This document shows positions 1 to 6,978 of a stretch of 7,073 bases of DNA, one piece after another; within the stretch, counting starts at the first letter, position 1; every line of letters begins with the position of its first letter. The stretch is from positions 1 to 7,073 of the forward strand of contig JASLAV010000819.1 in assembly GCA_030146905.1 (NCBI GenBank), read 5' to 3'. Position numbers and translations under genes: made by a program. This DNA comes from Lentzea sp. (GTDB lineage: Bacteria; Actinomycetota; Actinomycetes; Mycobacteriales; Pseudonocardiaceae). The notes under the pieces are model-generated. The model was not told the origin of the DNA. It worked only from the letters and a program-made list of their open reading frames with translations, and did no database searches.

Positions 1-1111
1 GGTCGCGCCGCCGTGACCTGATGGCGGGCAACGCGATCAGCAGTGCCGTCATCACGGCGGTGCCCCCGGCGACGGCGGCGACGAACGGCAGCCGGTCCGC
101 GATCTCGACGGCCGGCTGCGCGGAACGCTGGGAGGCGCGCGCCGGAGCCGGTTGCGTGGTCGACGGCTTGGGCACCGGCAGCAACGGGTTCCGTTCCACC
201 TGCGGGAGCTGTGCGGTGAGGGCGCCCATCGGGTCGACCATGCCGAACCCGGTCGTGACGTCACGGCCGGGCTCCGCCATGTCCTTGGCCGTCTTGACCA
301 GCACGTTGACGACGTCCTTGGCCGGCATCCGCGGGTGCTTCGCGCGGACCAGCGCGGCGACCCCCGACACGATCGCCGACGCCGCGCTCGTGCCGTCCAT
401 CTCGGCGTAACCGCTGGAGTAGACGCTTTCCGGCGCGGTCGTGACGATGCCCTCCGCGGGTGCCGCGAGCACCGTGTCCTCACCGACGTTGGACGACTTC
501 CACGGCTTGCCCTCGCGGTTCGTGCCCGCGACCGCGATCACGCCGCCGATGTTGGCCGGCGCGGAGACCTCCCCGCCCTCGTTGCCCGTGGCGGCGACCA
601 GGACGACGTCCTTCTCGATCGCGTAGTTCACAGCTTTGACCAGCGTCGGCGTCAGCGAGCTGGAGAAGCCGAGCGACAGGTTGATGACCTTGGCGCCGTG
701 GTCGGCCGCCCACCTGATGCTCTCGCCGACGACGTCGAGCGCGAACTGGTCCTTCTCGTCGGCGCTCGCGATCGGGAGGATCTTGGCGCCGGGCGCGATG
801 CCGAGCGCGCCGCCATCACGTCCGGTCGCGGCGATGATCCCGGCCATCCCCGTGCCGTGCCCGTCGGTGTCGGTCGTGCCGTCGGTGCCCTTGGACCTGC
901 CGAAACCCGCGCCCGGCAAGACGCGGCCTGCCAGGTCGGGGTGGCTGGCGTCGACCCCGGAGTCGATCACCGCGACGATCACGCCGTCACCGCGCGACTG
1001 GTCCTGCGCGGAGTAGACGTCGAGGGTGTTGAGATGCCATTCCTGCTCCTCGATCGTCTGCGCGGCGAGCAACAACGGCAGCGCGACGGCGAGCGCGGGC
1101 AGCAGTGGCAC
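1..1111 (-). CDS. mycP: Mycosin-like S8 serine protease, 3' end cut off
   Basis: Subtilisin-family protease of the mycosin type, which in mycobacteria works with type VII (ESX) secretion at the membrane. 370 residues are visible and no stop is reached at the window edge. Seen: a hydrophobic N-terminus (residues 1-18), the mycosin-like segment EQEWHLNTLDV (about 22-32), the catalytic Asp50 in AVIDSGVD, His85 in DGHGTG, the oxyanion Asn177 in AATGNEGG, and Ser242 in DGTSAAS. A Pro/Ala/Ser-rich linker (about 308-335) leads to one membrane span (about 341-363) followed by basic RSRRR, so little of the protein should be missing. GTG 1111 is the only reasonable start: an in-frame stop lies about 40 bases upstream. 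It has no good ribosome binding site (AAGGCGG is 18 bases away), and the signal region lacks the usual basic residues. No esx, ecc or PE/PPE gene is visible, so it could be a stand-alone mycosin. Family confident; the symbol is by family only. Confidence 0.9.
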   Translation of the reverse strand, partial: MPLLPALAVALPLLLAAQTIEEQEWHLNTLDVYSAQDQSRGDGVIVAVIDSGVDASHPDLAGRVLPGAGFGRSKGTDGTTDTDGHGTGMAGIIAATGRDGGALGIAPGAKILPIASADEKDQFALDVVGESIRWAADHGAKVINLSLGFSSSLTPTLVKAVNYAIEKDVVLVAATGNEGGEVSAPANIGGVIAVAGTNREGKPWKSSNVGEDTVLAAPAEGIVTTAPESVYSSGYAEMDGTSAASAIVSGVAALVRAKHPRMPAKDVVNVLVKTAKDMAEPGRDVTTGFGMVDPMGALTAQLPQVERNPLLPVPKPSTTQPAPARASQRSAQPAVEIADRLPFVAAVAGGTAVMTALLIALPAIRSRRRD

Positions 1112-1197
1112 GTCAGCTACATCGTGTTTCCGCCTTGACGTGCAACGTGCCTGGCGTCACACCGTGCGTAAGACCGCTGTTAACAAGCCGTGAAAAC

Positions 1198-1249
1198 CGG
1201 CGTTTCGGACATCATCGGCGTTTGAGTTCGCGTTGAATCGGGATATCCC
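1198..1249. promoter_or_regulatory. Divergent intergenic control region: direct repeat and palindrome
   Basis: Between the protease (leftward) and the 170-aa gene (rightward). CGGCGTTT occurs at 1198-1205 and again at 1216-1223, start-to-start 18 bases. GGGATATCCC at 1240-1249 is a perfect palindrome. A weak -35/-10 pair for the rightward gene may be TTGAGT (1222-1227) and TATCCC (1244-1249), with a 16-base spacer, so the palindrome would overlap the -10. Operator function is inferred. Confidence 0.3.
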
Positions 1250-1256
1250 CTGTGCC

Positions 1257-1261
1257 GGAGG
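1257..1261 (+). promoter_or_regulatory. Strong ribosome binding site fixing the start at 1268
   Basis: GGAGG, 6 bases before GTG 1268. It decides for this start over the out-of-frame GTG at 1261. Confidence 0.75.
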
Positions 1262-1267
1262 TGGCCC

Positions 1268-1780
1268 GTGGCGGTTCACGTTGAAGCAATGCTCAGCCTC
1301 GAGTGGTCCGACGCGCTCGAAGCTCCCAACTCGGTCGACCTGGCCAGCACGCCGGCGGAAGCTCGCCGGTCCTGGGTGAACAAAGCGGACGAGAAGCAGG
1401 TCCTCGCGACGTACCGTTCGGTCAGAGCGGTGGGCAACGCTCCTGCGCCGTGGTGGTTGCGCGCGCTGGACCGTGGGAAGATCTCCTCTCGTGCCGAAGG
1501 TCACGCCGTCGAGGACGCGGTGACCGAACTGCTGTCCTCGCGTCCCGGTTGGGTGTTCGTGCCGTGGGCCGACTTCGGTGAGGTCGGCTACTGGGAGTTC
1601 GTGCCGTCGGAGAGCGGTGTCTACGGACCGGCGACCCCGACGACGGTGCAGTTCACCGACTCGCACCGCGGCTGGATCCACCTCGTGCCCGCTCACCACG
1701 GACCCGGCCACGCGCAGCCCATCGACTTCACGGTCGCCGACCTGCGTGCTCAAATCGAGGACATCGAACTGATTGCCTAG
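1268..1780 (+). CDS. Conserved-looking hypothetical protein, 170 aa
   Basis: I do not recognise the family. The reading frame has strong G/C third-position bias and starts at GTG 1268 behind GGAGG, so it is a real gene rather than the antisense frame that covers the same stretch. The protein appears soluble: no signal peptide or membrane span. The N-terminal half is mixed charged (about 10-50). The middle holds APAPWWLRALDRGK (58-71) and a helix-like AEGHAVEDAVTELL (76-89). A Trp/aromatic-rich, probably beta-rich part follows (GWVFVPWADFGEVGYWEFV, 94-112, then GWIHLVP, 135-141). The C-terminus (about 152-170) is acidic and helical. Its stop codon TAG (1778-1780) forms the first half of the putative -10 of trmB, which starts 11 bases later. 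A functional link to trmB is not implied by the sequence. Confidence 0.8.
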   Translation: MAVHVEAMLSLEWSDALEAPNSVDLASTPAEARRSWVNKADEKQVLATYRSVRAVGNAPAPWWLRALDRGKISSRAEGHAVEDAVTELLSSRPGWVFVPWADFGEVGYWEFVPSESGVYGPATPTTVQFTDSHRGWIHLVPAHHGPGHAQPIDFTVADLRAQIEDIELIA

Positions 1781-1783
1781 AAT
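1778..1783 (+). promoter_or_regulatory. Putative leaderless -10 of trmB
   Basis: TAGAAT lies 8 bases before GTG 1792, the spacing expected if transcription begins at the start codon itself. No Shine-Dalgarno sequence is present there. The -35 is weak (TCGAGG at 1755-1760). The first three bases are the stop codon of the upstream gene. Confidence 0.5.
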
Positions 1784-1791
1784 GCCCGGTC

Positions 1792-2493
1792 GTGACCAGG
1801 CCTGAGTTCCCCCGTTCCATCGTCAGCTTCGTCCAGCGCGGCGAGCGCATGACCGTGGGGCAGGAACGCGCCTGGGACACGTACTGGGAGAAGATGGGCA
1901 ACGACGTGAAGTCGTTGCCCGAGGGGCCCCTCGACTTCGACTCGTGGTTCGGCCGTTCCGCCCCCGTGCTGCTGGAGATCGGTTCCGGCATGGGCGAGAC
2001 CACCTCCCAGCTCGTCGCCGCCGCTCCCGAGCTCAACTACGTCGCCGTCGAGGTCTACAAGCCGGGTCTCGCCCAGCTGCTGCTGCGCGGCGAGCACCTC
2101 GGCGGCCTCGACAACCTGCGCGTGCTGCGCGGTGACGCCGTCGACCTCCTCACCGACCACGTCGCGCCCGCGTCGCTGCACGGCGTGCGGATCTTCTTCC
2201 CCGACCCGTGGCCGAAGAAGAAGCACCACAAGCGCAGGCTCGTGCAGCCGGAGTTCATCTCGCTGGTGGCCTCGCGCTTGGAGCCGGGTGGTGTGCTGCA
2301 CCTCGCGACGGACTGGGAGCACTACGCGGAGCAGATGCTCGAGGTGTGCTCCGGCGAGCGCCTGCTGACCAACGTGTACGACGGCTGGGCGCCGCGTCCC
2401 GACTGGCGGCCCGTCACGAAGTTCGAGCAGCGGGCCGTGAACGAGGGCCGCGTCTCGCACGACCTGATGTTCAAGCGGAACGACCTCACCTGA
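1792..2493 (+). CDS. trmB: tRNA (guanine-N7-)-methyltransferase TrmB
   Basis: SAM-dependent enzyme that makes m7G at position 46 of the tRNA variable loop; cytoplasmic. 233 residues, a normal length for bacterial TrmB. Visible motifs: SAM motif I EIGSGMG (62-68), the acidic AVEVY (85-89) and GDA (114-116) that line the cofactor pocket, the family signature FPDPWPKKKHHKRR (136-149), TDWEHYA (173-179), and TKFEQR (209-214) near the C-terminus. All key residues look intact. The N-terminal SFVQRGERMT is the usual lead-in for actinobacterial TrmB, supporting GTG 1792. The next gene starts 132 bases downstream and appears to have its own promoter, so trmB is probably transcribed alone or with its upstream neighbour. 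Confidence 0.95.
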   Translation: MTRPEFPRSIVSFVQRGERMTVGQERAWDTYWEKMGNDVKSLPEGPLDFDSWFGRSAPVLLEIGSGMGETTSQLVAAAPELNYVAVEVYKPGLAQLLLRGEHLGGLDNLRVLRGDAVDLLTDHVAPASLHGVRIFFPDPWPKKKHHKRRLVQPEFISLVASRLEPGGVLHLATDWEHYAEQMLEVCSGERLLTNVYDGWAPRPDWRPVTKFEQRAVNEGRVSHDLMFKRNDLT

Positions 2494-2537
2494 TCGAGGT
2501 CTCAAGCTGGGGTTACTGCCACCGGGGGTCGAGCTTT

Positions 2538-2551
2538 CACTCGTTGGAGTG
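2538..2551. terminator. Short hairpin after trmB, possible weak terminator
   Basis: CACTC (2538-2542), loop GTTG, GAGTG (2547-2551), 45 bases after the trmB stop. Five base pairs, no T run, so termination is uncertain. The rest of the 2494-2586 gap shows nothing else clear. Confidence 0.2.
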
Positions 2552-2594
2552 GCTGGTGTTGATCACCCGAAATGCCCCGAGTGGCAGTGACGCG

Positions 2595-2617
2595 TAAGGC
2601 CGTTCCGGCCTTAGGTT
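2595..2617 (+). promoter_or_regulatory. Leaderless promoter with overlapping inverted-repeat operator of the NOS homologue
   Basis: TAAGGCC (2595-2601), five bases, GGCCTTA (2607-2613) is a perfect 7-bp inverted repeat. Its right arm overlaps TAGGTT (2612-2617), a -10-like hexamer 8 bases before GTG 2626. GTGACG at 2587-2592 is a possible -35 (19-base spacer). A protein bound to the repeat would sit between -35 and -10, suiting repression. It could also be only a DNA or RNA hairpin. Regulator unknown. Confidence 0.45.
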
Positions 2618-2625
2618 CTCGCTCC

Positions 2626-3732
2626 GTGACCCCCGACGTCCTCCCCGTCGCGGAGGAGTTCGTCCGCATGTTCCACGCGGCGCACTCCGACGCAGGCTCG
2701 CTGACCGCCCGCATCGCCCAGGTGCGCGCCGAGATCGCCGAGACCGGAACCTATCGCCACACGACCAACGAGCTCGCGTACGGCGCGCGGATCGCGCTGC
2801 GGGACTCCGGCTGGTGCACCTCGGGTGTGCCGTGGCGCCGGTTGAAGGTCCGCGACCTGCGCGGCTACCGCAACGCCGCGGCCGTCGCCGGTGAGTGCGT
2901 CGAGCACCTGCGGCTCGCGACCAACGGCGGTGAGATCCGGCCGCTGGTCACGGTCTTCGCGCCGGACTCACCCGGTTCGCCGGGACCGGTGATCTGGAAC
3001 GAGCAGCTGATCCGGTACGCCGGGTACGCCGACGGCACGGGGGACCGCCGGTACGCCCAGTTCACCGAGACCATGCAGGGCATGGGGTGGCGTCCGCCGG
3101 CGCGGCGGTCCCGCTTCGACGTGCTGCCGTTGGTGGTGGAGACCCAGCACGAGGGACCGCGGCTGTTCACGCTGCCGTCCGAGATCGTGCACGAGGTCCC
3201 GCTGGAGCACCCGACGCTGCCCTGGTTCGGCGAGATGGGACTGCGCTGGCACGCGGTTCCGCTCATCTCGAACATGCGGCTGTCGATCGGTGGCGTGAAC
3301 TACCCCGCCGCGCCGTTCAACTCGTGGTTCGTCGGCGCCGAGATCGGCACGCGGTCATTGGCTGAGGAAGGCGCGTACGGCGTGGCGCGTGAGGTCGCCG
3401 AAGCACTGGGCCTGGACACGACGTCCGAACGCACGCTGTGGCGGGACTTCGCGACCGTTCACCTGAACGCGGCAGTGCTGCACTCGTTCGACAAGGCGGC
3501 CGTCACCATCACGGACCACCACGCGGAGGCCCTGCACCGTCTCGCCTGGCTGCGCTCCCGGCAGCGCCCGTCGCCGGCGCGTCCCGCGTTCCGGCTGGAC
3601 ACCGCAGCCGCGTCGCGCGCACGGACCGGTGCTCCGGCGCGCTTCACGGCCGCGTTGGACGAGACCCGTCCTCAGCCGACGAGCAGGCTGGCGGAACTTC
3701 TCCGCCAGCAGAACTCCCTGACCAGCGTCTGA
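2626..3732 (+). CDS. Divergent nitric oxide synthase oxygenase-domain protein
   Basis: Heme protein of the NOS oxygenase fold; family members turn L-arginine into citrulline and NO. 368 residues, oxygenase domain only, as in bacterial NOS. Seen: the heme ligand Cys64, WNEQLIRYAGY (124-134), FDVLPL (164-169), WHAVPLISNM (208-217), PFNSWFVGAEIG (230-241) with the guanidinium-binding Glu239, LHSF (285-288) and TITDHH (294-299). Odd: Leu58 replaces the Trp six residues before the heme Cys, the usual CIGR is CTSG, Ser244 and Ala250 replace substrate-site residues (Asp376 and Arg382 of mouse iNOS), and the C-terminal pterin-site WxW...PP motif is missing. GTG 2626 is preferred over ATG 2572: it sits 8 bases after a -10-like hexamer, the homology begins after it, and the upstream extension would carry a rare TTA codon. 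No reductase lies nearby. Fold confident, reaction uncertain. Confidence 0.88.
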   Translation: MTPDVLPVAEEFVRMFHAAHSDAGSLTARIAQVRAEIAETGTYRHTTNELAYGARIALRDSGWCTSGVPWRRLKVRDLRGYRNAAAVAGECVEHLRLATNGGEIRPLVTVFAPDSPGSPGPVIWNEQLIRYAGYADGTGDRRYAQFTETMQGMGWRPPARRSRFDVLPLVVETQHEGPRLFTLPSEIVHEVPLEHPTLPWFGEMGLRWHAVPLISNMRLSIGGVNYPAAPFNSWFVGAEIGTRSLAEEGAYGVAREVAEALGLDTTSERTLWRDFATVHLNAAVLHSFDKAAVTITDHHAEALHRLAWLRSRQRPSPARPAFRLDTAAASRARTGAPARFTAALDETRPQPTSRLAELLRQQNSLTSV

Positions 3733-3766
3733 CTTCCCCATCACACGCTGGCGCTCCGGTGGCTCC

Positions 3767-3865
3767 CTACCTGTGCGAGTCGATCATCACGCCCGAGAGA
3801 GCCATCAGCGCAAGGACCAACAGGCCGACCACAGCGGCGGCCCAAGTGAACACAACTGACAACAT
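3767..3865 (-). CDS. Small single-span membrane protein, 32 aa
   Basis: Unrecognised microprotein. ATG 3865 follows GGAGG with a 5-base gap, one of the strongest initiation sites in the window, and 26 of 32 codons end in G or C. The product begins MLSVVFTWAAAVVGLL and is hydrophobic from about residue 4 to 28, enough for one membrane helix, ending in the polar tail DSHR. It is convergent with the NOS homologue (34 bases between stops) and divergent from the sensor kinase. KdpF is similar in size and hydrophobicity, but no kdpA follows. It may be a small partner of a membrane protein, possibly the divergent kinase; this is inference from position only. Confidence 0.6.
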   Translation of the reverse strand: MLSVVFTWAAAVVGLLVLALMALSGVMIDSHR

Positions 3866-3870
3866 GGCGT

Positions 3871-3875
3871 CCTCC
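3871..3875 (-). promoter_or_regulatory. Strong ribosome binding site of the 32-aa membrane protein
   Basis: GGAGG on the minus strand, 5 bases before ATG 3865. It is the main evidence that this short frame is translated. Confidence 0.7.
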
Positions 3876-3920
3876 GTTCTCCGGCTCCTGCTACTCCAGA
3901 GTCCGTTACCGCGTCGTCAT

Positions 3921-3947
3921 CCGGCATCCGCCGGAGGGGTATTTCCG
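3921..3947. repeat. Composite inverted-repeat element, copy 1
   Basis: CCGGC-ATCC-GCCGG (3921-3934) is followed by AGGGGTATTTCCG (3935-3947). The same architecture recurs 47 bases further on. It lies between the 32-aa gene and the sensor kinase, so it may be a tandem operator, or a stem-loop in the leader RNA of the 32-aa gene. Confidence 0.5.
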
Positions 3948-3967
3948 CAGGTCGTCCTCTCAGCCTT

Positions 3968-3991
3968 CCGGCTGATGCCGGGGTATCCCCG
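3968..3991. repeat. Composite inverted-repeat element, copy 2
   Basis: CCGGC-TGAT-GCCGG (3968-3981) runs directly into the symmetric CGGGG-TAT-CCCCG (3979-3991). The arms match copy 1 while the loop bases differ, which points to conserved pairing or dyad symmetry rather than simple duplication. Confidence 0.5.
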
Positions 3992-4020
3992 AGTCGGACG
4001 CGTCGTCGTCCCTTCGGCCC

Positions 4021-4026
4021 TACTGT
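4021..4026 (+). promoter_or_regulatory. Putative leaderless -10 of the sensor kinase
   Basis: TACTGT lies 7 bases before GTG 4034, with no Shine-Dalgarno sequence in between. It favours GTG 4034 over the in-frame GTG 4025, which would overlap the hexamer. The -35 is not clear. Confidence 0.4.
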
Positions 4027-4033
4027 GTGTCGG

Positions 4034-5191
4034 GTGGAGAGCACGGATCTGAGCTGGCGGCTGCTCGCCAAGCGCCAGTGGCCGCTGGTGCTCACGCTCA
4101 CCGGCATCGTCATCGCGGAGACCGGGTCGATCACCACAGCGCTGGGCTGGTGGCAGATCCCCGGTGTGCTGATCATCTGCGTGATCGCGGTCCTGGCACC
4201 CTGGCGTCCGTTCGACGCGGCGCTGGCCGCGGCCGTCGCCATCGTCTGCGCGGCCCTCTACCTGCGGTTCCTCGGCGTTCCGTTCGAGCCGCACTTCTTC
4301 GTCAGCGGTGTCAACGTCTCGATCACCGGCGCGGCGATGGCGACCATCGCGGTCCTCGTGCGGGAGTCCACGCACCTGCGCGCGGTGGCGGGCACGGTGC
4401 TGGTGGTGGCGTCGATGGTCACCGCGGAGGTTCTCGGCTGGCGTGCGGTGTCGGCCGTCGAGTACCGCGACTGGGACCCGGACATGAGGTCGTACCTGTT
4501 CGGCGCGTGCATCATGCTCGTGCTGGCCGTCGGCACCGGGCTGTACTTCCGCGCCAGGGACAACGAGCGCGCGTCTCAGCTGGCGGCGTCCGTCGCGGCG
4601 GCCCAGAACGCCGAGCGGATGGCGTTGGCACGCGAGCTGCACGACGTGGTGGCGCACTACGTGACCGCGATCGTCGTGCACGCGCAGGCAGGTCAGCTCA
4701 ACCGCGAGGTGGACGTGCTGCCGTCGATCGCCGCGTCCGGCAACGAGGCGCTGACGGCGATGCGCCGCCTCGTCGGAACGATGCGCGACGGCACCTCCAA
4801 CGGCCCGGCCGCGTCCTCGTCGCTGATGGACGACGTGCGGTCGCTGGCGGAGGAATCAGGTCTGCCGGTGCGGCTCTCGTTCGACCTGCAGGACGCGGTG
4901 CCGCAGGAGCTGGCCCGGTCGGTGCTGAGGCTGGTGCAGGAATCCTTGACGAACACTCAAAAACACGCCACGGCGGTGTCCTCGGTGGACGTGTCGTTGT
5001 CCTCGAGCGACGGTGTGCTGCGGTTGAGCGCCCTGGACGACGGTGTCGCCTCGGAGGTTCCCGTCGGCGGGTCCGGGGGTTACGGGCTCGTCGGCATGCG
5101 CGAGCGGGTGGAACTGCTGGGCGGGACGTTCTCGGCAGGCCGGCGCGAACCGACCGGCTGGACGGTCCGCGCCGAACTGCCGATCGCCTAG
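4034..5191 (+). CDS. Membrane sensor histidine kinase, HisKA_3 type
   Basis: Two-component sensor of the NarL/DesK-like class, which autophosphorylates on His and passes the phosphate to a response regulator. 385 residues from GTG 4034. The N-terminal third (about 17-171) carries roughly five to six hydrophobic spans with a short external-looking loop around VEYRDWDPDMRS (142-153). The dimerisation/phosphoacceptor part has ARELHDVVAH (199-208) with His203. The ATPase part has the N box QESLTNTQKHA (302-312), DDG (335-337), and GYGLVGMRERV (349-359). All catalytic motifs are present. No separate sensor domain is seen, so the ligand is probably detected in or at the membrane. The usual downstream response regulator is absent; instead a minus-strand small gene overlaps its stop. 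Whether it is an orphan or its partner lies elsewhere cannot be told. Confidence 0.92.
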   Translation: MESTDLSWRLLAKRQWPLVLTLTGIVIAETGSITTALGWWQIPGVLIICVIAVLAPWRPFDAALAAAVAIVCAALYLRFLGVPFEPHFFVSGVNVSITGAAMATIAVLVRESTHLRAVAGTVLVVASMVTAEVLGWRAVSAVEYRDWDPDMRSYLFGACIMLVLAVGTGLYFRARDNERASQLAASVAAAQNAERMALARELHDVVAHYVTAIVVHAQAGQLNREVDVLPSIAASGNEALTAMRRLVGTMRDGTSNGPAASSSLMDDVRSLAEESGLPVRLSFDLQDAVPQELARSVLRLVQESLTNTQKHATAVSSVDVSLSSSDGVLRLSALDDGVASEVPVGGSGGYGLVGMRERVELLGGTFSAGRREPTGWTVRAELPIA

Positions 5192-5599: not shown

Positions 5600-5616
5600 A
5601 TGGCAGGATGAATTGC

Positions 5617-6978
5617 ATGTCACTGCGCCTGCAAGCCCCGGTGGTCCTGCCCTGCAACCCGTCCTGCTCCGTGTTGCGAGACGCGGTCGTGGACGTCGTC
5701 GACGGCCGGATCACCCACGTGGGCGTCGCGTCGGAAGCCCCCGAGTTCTCCGGTGAGGTCCGGCAGCTGTCCGGCATCCTGCTGCCCGGCCTCGTGAACA
5801 CCCACGCGCACAGCCCGATGGCGGTGCTGCGCGGCCTCGGCGCCGACCTGCCGTTGCTGCGCTGGCTGCAGGAGCACATGTGGCCGAACGAGGCGCGCAT
5901 GACCGCGGCCGACATCGGCACGGGCATGCTGCTCAGCGCCATCGAGATGCTCCGGCACGGCGTGACGACGTCCGCCGAGATGTACTTCCACGGCCCCGAA
6001 CTTGTGGCCTCGGTGCTGGAGGCCGGGTCACGCGTGGTGTTCGGCGGGGCGATCCTCGACGTGCCGGGCATGGACTGGAAGGCGATGACCGACGAGATCT
6101 CGGCGTGGATCGACGCCGACGGCCTGCGCTTCGGCCCCGGCGACCGGGTCGAGCTGGCCTACGGCCCGCACTCCGCCTACACGCTCTCACCGGCACAGCT
6201 GACCGCCGTGGCCGTCGAGGCGCGGGCCCGCGGCGCGCTGCTGATGGTGCACGTGGCCGAGTCGCCGTTCGAGGACGAGGCGCAGCGCGCGGAGTACGGC
6301 TCGGTGCCGACCCTGCTGAAGGCGTCGGACGTGCTGGGCGGACGAGTGCTGTCCGCGCACTCCGTCCACCTGTCCGACGACGACATCGCGCTGTACGCGT
6401 CGCACGGCGTCGGCGTGGCGCATTGCCCCGGCTCCAACGCGAAGCTCGCGTCGGGGATCGCGCGGGTGCCGGAGATGCTGGCCGCCGGCGTGGCGGTCGG
6501 GCTCGGCACCGACGGCCCCGCGTCCAACGACGACCTGGACCTCTTCGAGGAGGCCAGGCTGGCCGGGCTGTTCGCGCGGGTGTCCAAGATGGACGCGACC
6601 GTGCTCGGGGCCGCGCAGGCGTTGCTGATGGCAACTCGTGGCGGAGCCGCCGCGCTCGGGCGTTCCGACATCGGGGCGCTGGAGGCAGGGCGCTGGGCCG
6701 ACGTCGTGCACGTCGACGCCGACGACCCGGCGTTCGCGACCGGGCTGGACGCGCCGGACCCGCAGCTGCTGGCGAACCTGGTGTGGGCCTCGGGGTCCCG
6801 GCGGGTCACCGACGTGTGGGTGGCGGGGGACCAGGTGGTGACCGGCGGTGAGTCGACCCGTGTCGACCGCCGGGTAGCGCAGGCCGGGGTGGCCGCGGTG
6901 TCGCGGCGACTGCGGAGCGCATATGGACCGATAGCGGCGCGCAGCAGCAGCTGGCGCGCCGGGTTCCCCCCTGTTTGA
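5617..6978 (+). CDS. Amidohydrolase, MTA/SAH deaminase-like
   Basis: Zinc-dependent hydrolytic deaminase of the amidohydrolase superfamily, in the group containing 5-methylthioadenosine/S-adenosylhomocysteine deaminase (MtaD) and TrzN/AtzB-like enzymes. 453 residues, close to the family length. Seen: a short N-terminal beta part, then PGLVNTHAHSP (57-67) with metal ligands His63 and His65, the family stretch RGLGADLPLLRWLQEHMWP (72-90), GVTTSAEMY (115-123), GPHSAYT (183-189) with a likely substrate His185, VHVAES (211-216) with His212 and Glu215, SAHSVHL (246-252) with His248, and GLGTDGPASN (295-304) with catalytic Asp299. GRWADVVHVD (358-367) closes the barrel into the C-terminal beta part. 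Active site intact. ATG 5617 has AGGA 8 bases upstream; ATG 5608 is an in-frame alternative. Aminofutalosine deaminase or another purine or pterin deaminase is equally possible; the substrate cannot be fixed from sequence. Cytoplasmic. Confidence 0.9.
   Translation: MSLRLQAPVVLPCNPSCSVLRDAVVDVVDGRITHVGVASEAPEFSGEVRQLSGILLPGLVNTHAHSPMAVLRGLGADLPLLRWLQEHMWPNEARMTAADIGTGMLLSAIEMLRHGVTTSAEMYFHGPELVASVLEAGSRVVFGGAILDVPGMDWKAMTDEISAWIDADGLRFGPGDRVELAYGPHSAYTLSPAQLTAVAVEARARGALLMVHVAESPFEDEAQRAEYGSVPTLLKASDVLGGRVLSAHSVHLSDDDIALYASHGVGVAHCPGSNAKLASGIARVPEMLAAGVAVGLGTDGPASNDDLDLFEEARLAGLFARVSKMDATVLGAAQALLMATRGGAAALGRSDIGALEAGRWADVVHVDADDPAFATGLDAPDPQLLANLVWASGSRRVTDVWVAGDQVVTGGESTRVDRRVAQAGVAAVSRRLRSAYGPIAARSSSWRAGFPPV

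Follow-up and report, generated by a model that had tools for sequence, protein, structure and literature searches.

The window, that is, the whole 7,073-nucleotide stretch of Lentzea sp. contig JASLAV010000819.1 that was analysed, carries a gene whose product has the heme-domain fold of nitric oxide synthase (NOS). In our judgement the best explanation overall, and a highly probable one, is that this variant belongs to a family of NOS-derived paralogues conserved in Pseudonocardiaceae and does not act as a pterin-dependent arginine nitric oxide (NO) synthase. As read from the sequence, the proximal Trp, the Gly and Arg of CxGR and the whole pterin loop are lost and the arginine contacts are changed; arginine-to-NO synthesis by the variant has probably been lost. 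The gene and its altered parts are as follows.

2626..3732, + strand: gene for the NOS-like protein, 368 amino acids from a GTG start, PF02898 356.6 bits
2794..2835, + strand: rebuilt heme-proximal loop, residues 57-70, ALRDSGWCTSGVPW (translation, column counts)
3316..3357, + strand: altered substrate-side loop, residues 231-244, FNSWFVGAEIGTRS, canonical FNGWYMGTEIGARN (translation, column counts)
3538..3597, + strand: residues 305-324, at the site of the canonical pterin loop CPADWSWIVPPxSG (alignment, structure)

The PF02898 (NO_synthase) score, against a cut-off of 22.7, places the protein in the fold family, and it is the only one of the six scanned window proteins to match NOS; at 0.001 no NCBIfam model matches it, and at the gathering threshold Rfam has no match across the window. 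The frame is also open from an ATG at 2572, an alternative start that would give 386 amino acids, the length of database entry P0002. The PF02898 alignment pairs residues 4-304 with profile positions 4-307 of 362 and so leaves the final 55 positions of the profile uncovered. A sequencing error can be dismissed because L001-L021 and L041, 92-97% identical to the window protein, all read ALRDSGWCTSG[VL]PW; relatives with the canonical motif stand at about 63% identity and below, among the matches listed for the protein query.

Residue counts are given in human eNOS numbering and come from an alignment of 250 rows, left after 12 fragments and 12 duplicates were dropped. Its 60 canonical rows are defined by the proximal Trp, so that Trp in 60/60 holds by construction and the other columns are the independent evidence. 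The 190 non-canonical rows comprise 150 of Cys-Thr type (including the window), 18 Cys-Pro, 3 Cys-Gly, 3 of PC type (reading PCTTRLPW or PCATRLPW) and 16 that fit none of these types: L119 and the 15 rows that lack the heme Cys. The closest-protein set (the best 120 of 1926) and the set of 44 loci, for which WCTSGVPW served as search word, are both biased towards the query, and ALRDSGWCTSGVPW or near versions of it occur in most of both; the unbiased view is a PF02898 scan of 390 genomes of the family.

In the proximal loop, Leu58 (codon 2797-2799) stands where a functional pterin-dependent NO synthase has its proximal Trp, Trp63 (2812-2814) replaces Arg, Ser66-Gly67 replace Gly-Arg, and the heme ligand Cys64 (2815-2817) is kept. 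At eNOS 178 (the iNOS-188 position) the non-canonical rows have Leu in 186, Met in 2, Val in 2 and Trp in none; at 183, Trp in 186, Pro in 3 and Arg in 1; at 184, Cys in 175, Ser in 9, Trp in 3, Ala in 2 and Arg in 1. Position 186 is Ser in 163 rows and Gly in only 2, and position 187 Gly in 171 and Arg in only 3, all of PC type. The sequence-only reading of this stretch had named Leu58, Trp63, Cys64 and CTSG, all of which we found in frame; its proposal of a NOS fold with kept Cys and rebuilt proximal pocket is confirmed by the family score and the column counts. It had also raised the possibility that L58 and W63 mark a conserved clade, which is what emerged: Trp precedes the Cys position in 186/190 rows, the proximal Trp occurs in 0/190, and one clade holds them. 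What it had named as speaking against itself, close homologues with the normal motif, a sequencing error or a poor family score, did not appear.

The idea that low model confidence at the Cys loop marks a broken pocket was rejected; the AlphaFold value is 77 here and 68 in the canonical control, and because that control dips there too, the low-confidence loop is uninformative. The models contain no heme. Separately, P0107 has a 15-residue insertion (DSGWALARQRGRARSNAAAPSGSVPW) in the former Cys loop, and L119 (G014, 990-2312, - strand) stands alone on a long branch; it reads ALRESGRCPPGLGW, keeps the Cys, has neither Trp and carries an altered substrate loop.

Beyond the last shared helix, the window protein has just a short strand around RPAF (319-322). 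The motif DWxWxxP, in which we take DWxW to be the pterin-binding Trp motif, occurs in every canonical row but L062, L096 and L108 (57 of 60) and in none of the 190 non-canonical ones, the window protein among them, and eNOS 445 and 447 are gaps in 190/190. The substrate-side loop is changed at Ser233, Phe235, Val236 and Ser244 and retains Trp234, Glu239 and Arg243. The Gln of the arginine site (eNOS Gln247, iNOS Gln257) is retained in 183/190 non-canonical rows and Arg250 in 179/190. In the 150 Cys-Thr rows, Tyr357 is replaced by Phe (114) or His (36), Asn366 by Ser (91), Gly (36) or Ala (23), and Gly355 by Ser (110), Thr (38) or Arg (2). Position 361, to which nNOS Glu592 presumably corresponds once numbering is carried between isoforms, is Glu in 126 of these rows and Asp in 24. 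Kept as Glu239 in the window, this Glu is replaced in the Cys-Pro and Cys-Gly branches; the 18 Cys-Pro rows have Ala in 13, Thr in 2, and Gly, Ser and Glu in 1 each, with Tyr357 and Gly355 each kept in 17 and Trp356 changed to Val in 17. The odd Cys-Pro row is P0084, which the tree groups with Cys-Thr rows. The substrate Glu is Glu592 of nNOS, and a Trp-Tyr pair contacts arginine, according to the excerpted texts of PMC6120233 and PMC6104048, respectively; of that pair, by our presumed mapping, the window keeps Trp234 and has Phe235 in place of Tyr. Tyr341-to-His, considered as a diagnostic change, was rejected, His being found in 53/60 canonical rows as well. Thus the claim that domain order and signatures are those of bacterial NOS stands in part, for the fold and the Cys, and falls for the missing C-terminal pterin segment and the changed arginine contacts.

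The variant rows group together as a single clade (100/100 on a tree of 51 rows, 22 of them variants), which persists at 100/99 with the proximal loop, substrate loop and C-terminus left out, and in 131-row trees the canonical rows make up one side of a branch (100; 99 without the trait columns). The heme Cys is gone in 15/190 rows, and no fewer than 11 changes on the tree of 131 rows are needed to explain its presence or absence; well-supported branches force 7 (3 without the trait columns). A single branch of 33 rows contains 12 of the Cys-less 15; the remaining P0062, P0068 and P0070 belong to a branch of 23 rows (support 80), in which the window is found too.

PF02898 is matched in 256 of the 390 genomes of the family. 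In a phylum-wide draw of 396 genomes, 8 match, the variant being found only in the centre genome G001; each of the 7 others has a single match, which scores 408-515 bits in six of them and is divergent, at 214, in the seventh. In nine genomes read, the PF02898 match of the variant reaches 346-374 bits and runs to profile position 306-323, against 495-523 bits and positions 356-360 for canonical copies. The paralogues coexist in 7 of the 9, G007 and G008 having the variant alone; G005 adds to its variant two canonical copies and a fourth match that is divergent. When the window protein served as query, at least 86 genomes at 461-816 bits and 3 at 430-440 precede the first canonical match at 425.7 (hand count); these 86 + 3, among the matches listed, and 20 further genomes of Cys-Pro and Cys-Gly types identified by sequence give 109 variant-bearing genomes. 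At least two PF02898 matches occur in 88 and a single one in 21 (hand count; extra matches partly read). Because the variant is the sole NOS match in those 21, whose assemblies may be incomplete, it seems independent of the canonical enzyme.

The other genes of the window are the following.

1792..2493, + strand: trmB, tRNA (guanosine-46-N7)-methyltransferase, upstream neighbour (TIGR00091, 157.7 bits)
1268..1780, + strand: 170-amino-acid protein without Pfam or NCBIfam match, upstream neighbour
4025..5191, + strand: sensor histidine kinase of HisKA_3 type, downstream neighbour
5608..6978, + strand: TRZ/ATZ-type amidohydrolase, deaminase-like (below the cut-offs of named models), downstream neighbour
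2-1111, - strand: S8 protease of mycosin type, truncated at the edge of the window (TIGR03921, 291.2 bits, cut-off 278.75)

The 170-amino-acid gene and trmB, the latter on the same strand, lie upstream in 61/64 variant loci (exceptions L142-L144). The kinase is present in 56/64 and the amidohydrolase in 52/64, counts that are lower bounds only in part, as some locus windows end early and some kinase matches lie far upstream. In 8 of 9 measured Cys-Pro loci the amidohydrolase starts about 15-34 bp after the variant gene, and a mycosin-type protease lies near trmB in 36/64. Among ten regions from variant-free genomes, a canonical NOS adjoins trmB in L145, L153 and L154; in the other seven (L146-L152) trmB and an amidohydrolase are present and NOS was not found. 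The amidohydrolase is accordingly weakened as proof of a pathway, for it follows trmB without NOS (L150) and lies near canonical NOS (L153, L154). The two canonical NOS surroundings read, L186 and L187, are without trmB. In L186 (G009:C45) the Saccharopolyspora hirsuta canonical frame, 7523-8758, comes after murein/division-like frames (136-4142 onwards) and is followed by sugar-ABC-transporter-like frames, all named by eye.

This gene order suggests that the variant gene occupies the ancestral trmB-NOS locus. On the 51-row tree, trait columns included, the three trmB-linked canonical genes and three more canonical rows fall outside the branch of 14 canonical rows plus the variants (99/94). 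Origin by duplication of an ancestral trmB-linked NOS is most likely; a canonical copy would then have come to lie elsewhere, and the resident copy would have changed and later been lost in some genomes. We infer that the canonical copies moved away from trmB.

Judging by substitution rates, the NOS-like gene is under purifying selection, with a median dN/dS of 0.066 over 22 Lentzea-type loci and the window; its neighbours have medians of 0.093 (trmB), 0.133 (amidohydrolase, 20 sequences), 0.150 (170-amino-acid gene) and 0.265 (kinase). The new residues L58, D60, G62, W63, R269 and D289 are each fixed at 93% or more, and the frames are full-length across several genera.

For S. hirsuta VKM Ac-666 given cholesterol in rich medium for 24 h, the excerpted text of PMC9782250 lists 28 genes raised in RNA sequencing. 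Among them is F1721_08440, labelled nitric oxide synthase oxygenase, raised 5.40-fold alongside 08445 (FtsX-like permease, 26.54), 08450 (ABC ATPase, 40.83), 08455 (kinase, 6.79), 08460 (regulator, 3.71) and 08470 (amidohydrolase, 9.71); its authors regard the raised genes as most likely unconnected with sterol breakdown. Gene for gene, these tags correspond to L185, where the order is variant, FtsX, ABC ATPase, kinase, regulator, ABC-F-like gene and amidohydrolase; the unlisted 08465 falls at the position of the ABC-F-like gene, and the canonical region L186 does not fit. With tags assigned to the variant locus by gene order, and as far as the excerpt goes, the variant is induced together with its neighbours in S. 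hirsuta. In the window, neither the permease nor the ABC ATPase nor the regulator adjoins the gene.

How might such a protein work? Heme binding is likely in the window's branch, judged from the Cys, Glu and Trp kept there, and the Lentzea protein may still bind heme via Cys64, its thiolate no longer hydrogen-bonded by Trp. An arginine-to-NO cycle would be impossible for it, as pterin would be absent to supply the fast electron. Across the clade the fold and the new SGW motif are shared most widely and the Cys less widely, so thiolate-heme catalysis is unlikely to be the common function. Since sister lineages are without heme Cys and substrate Glu, and Trp63 is wider than the Cys (186 versus 175/190), an accessory seems to us more plausible than a monooxygenase. 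Our best guess, held less surely, is that this accessory would bind heme or a ligand, as a sensor, sink or scaffold tied to the kinase/ABC neighbourhood and induced with the kinase and ABC-transporter genes there. Taken furthest, as a tentative proposal that we hold short of even confidence, this would be a NOS pseudoenzyme family, in which, following duplication, the ancestral-locus copy shed pterin, arginine contacts and at last, independently in several lineages, the heme ligand, fixed the new Trp next to the old Cys, and became a component of a membrane-stress-type regulon making no NO.

Several points weigh against the picture of a family that has left NO synthesis from an ancestral locus. 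The window's branch retains Cys64, Trp234, Glu239, Arg243 and, in most rows, the arginine-site Gln and Arg, residues that would fit a bound heme and a guanidine-like ligand, with catalysis possible. Trp63 is missing in 4/190 rows (the 3 PC rows and L119). The Cys-less rows are 2 entries from metagenome-assembled genomes and 13 with source tags only, none being isolate-named; a search with P0121 for Cys-less members in 390 sequenced genomes reached a top identity of at most 73%, and of 30 loci read from it 29 have GWC and L165 has no match to the motif pattern. Finally, the ancestral-locus argument stands on three loci.

The sequence-only reading had suggested different oxygen chemistry. This survives as one option, with a non-catalytic role at least as likely for the whole clade, because the C-terminal pterin segment is gone, the residues contacting arginine differ and the heme Cys is absent from some relatives that share the pocket. 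In its fullest form, a possible though doubtful one, the variant would be a pterin-free heme-thiolate oxygenase or peroxygenase, whose freer, more electron-donating thiolate and open pterin side would permit oxidation, driven by peroxide or otherwise, of a guanidine-like or other small substrate. Cys64, Trp234, Glu239 and the Gln/Arg pair in the window's branch, the strong purifying selection and the frequent amidohydrolase neighbour (52/64 loci) agree with it; the 15/190 rows without heme Cys do not, nor do the Cys-Pro and Cys-Gly branches, with the substrate Glu replaced yet the same upstream neighbours. NOS is a dimer, and the coexistence of paralogues in 7/9 genomes read would allow the variant to act as a regulatory partner, pairing with the cell's canonical NOS in mixed dimers, an unlikely role given that the variant is the sole PF02898 match in 21/390 genomes (with the same caveats of hand counting and assembly). 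Quite improbable is a working, unusual NO synthase with another electron donor instead of pterin: the PF02898 score, the fold and the Cys and Glu of the window's branch speak for it, but the pterin loop is gone, the Tyr357, Asn366 and Gly355 equivalents are replaced there, and many variant genomes also have canonical NOS. A decaying duplicate, which the several lost catalytic residues and the seven variant-free trmB regions without a NOS found might recall, is very hard to credit and largely refuted by the present data, namely the low dN/dS, the full-length frames in several genera, the fixed new residues and the transcript apparently raised in S. hirsuta.

Among known systems, canonical bacterial NOS (PDB 2flq and 4d3v; L049) share with the variant the fold, Cys ligand, heme Trp and substrate Glu, Gln and Arg; L049, the canonical paralogue in a Lentzea genome, is 54% identical to it over 317 residues. 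In contrast to them, the variant lacks the proximal Trp, the CxGR Gly-Arg and the pterin loop, and on the arginine side has Phe for Tyr, Ser for Asn and Ser for Gly. Laboratory mutants of the proximal Trp have known effects in NOS. They share with the variant the loss of the Trp-thiolate bond, a hydrogen bond that the proximal Trp gives to the heme thiolate in NOS (PMC4304226, in excerpt), whereas the variant is natural, clade-fixed and coupled to loss of the pterin loop. PtnF, TxtD, RufN/IlaM, FlsN1 and Laj3 are, like the variant, actinobacterial NOS, and lie in biosynthetic clusters (PMC10831120, in excerpt); the variant lies in a conserved block of the chromosome next to trmB, the comparison here being one of location. 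A search of the open-access literature, subscription journals lying outside it, found no description of the variant subfamily.

For NOS enzymologists, the branch offers a natural experiment on which active-site parts of the NOS scaffold can be dropped under strong selection, and genomes that also hold a canonical paralogue supply a matched control in the same cell. Named members are labelled nitric oxide synthase in the source, and the branch could mislead such labels; it could likewise mislead genome mining for nitrated natural products, which uses NOS genes (PMC10831120, in excerpt).

Lastly, very divergent NOS-like proteins were met in L062 (1477-3693, - strand; 739-amino-acid frame, 244 bits against PF02898), from the genome of a Kutzneria locus, and in L097 (1447-2454, + strand; 214 bits), from a distant genome of the phylum, and broken or split NOS-like frames were seen in G226, G303, G353, G013, G042 and G148.
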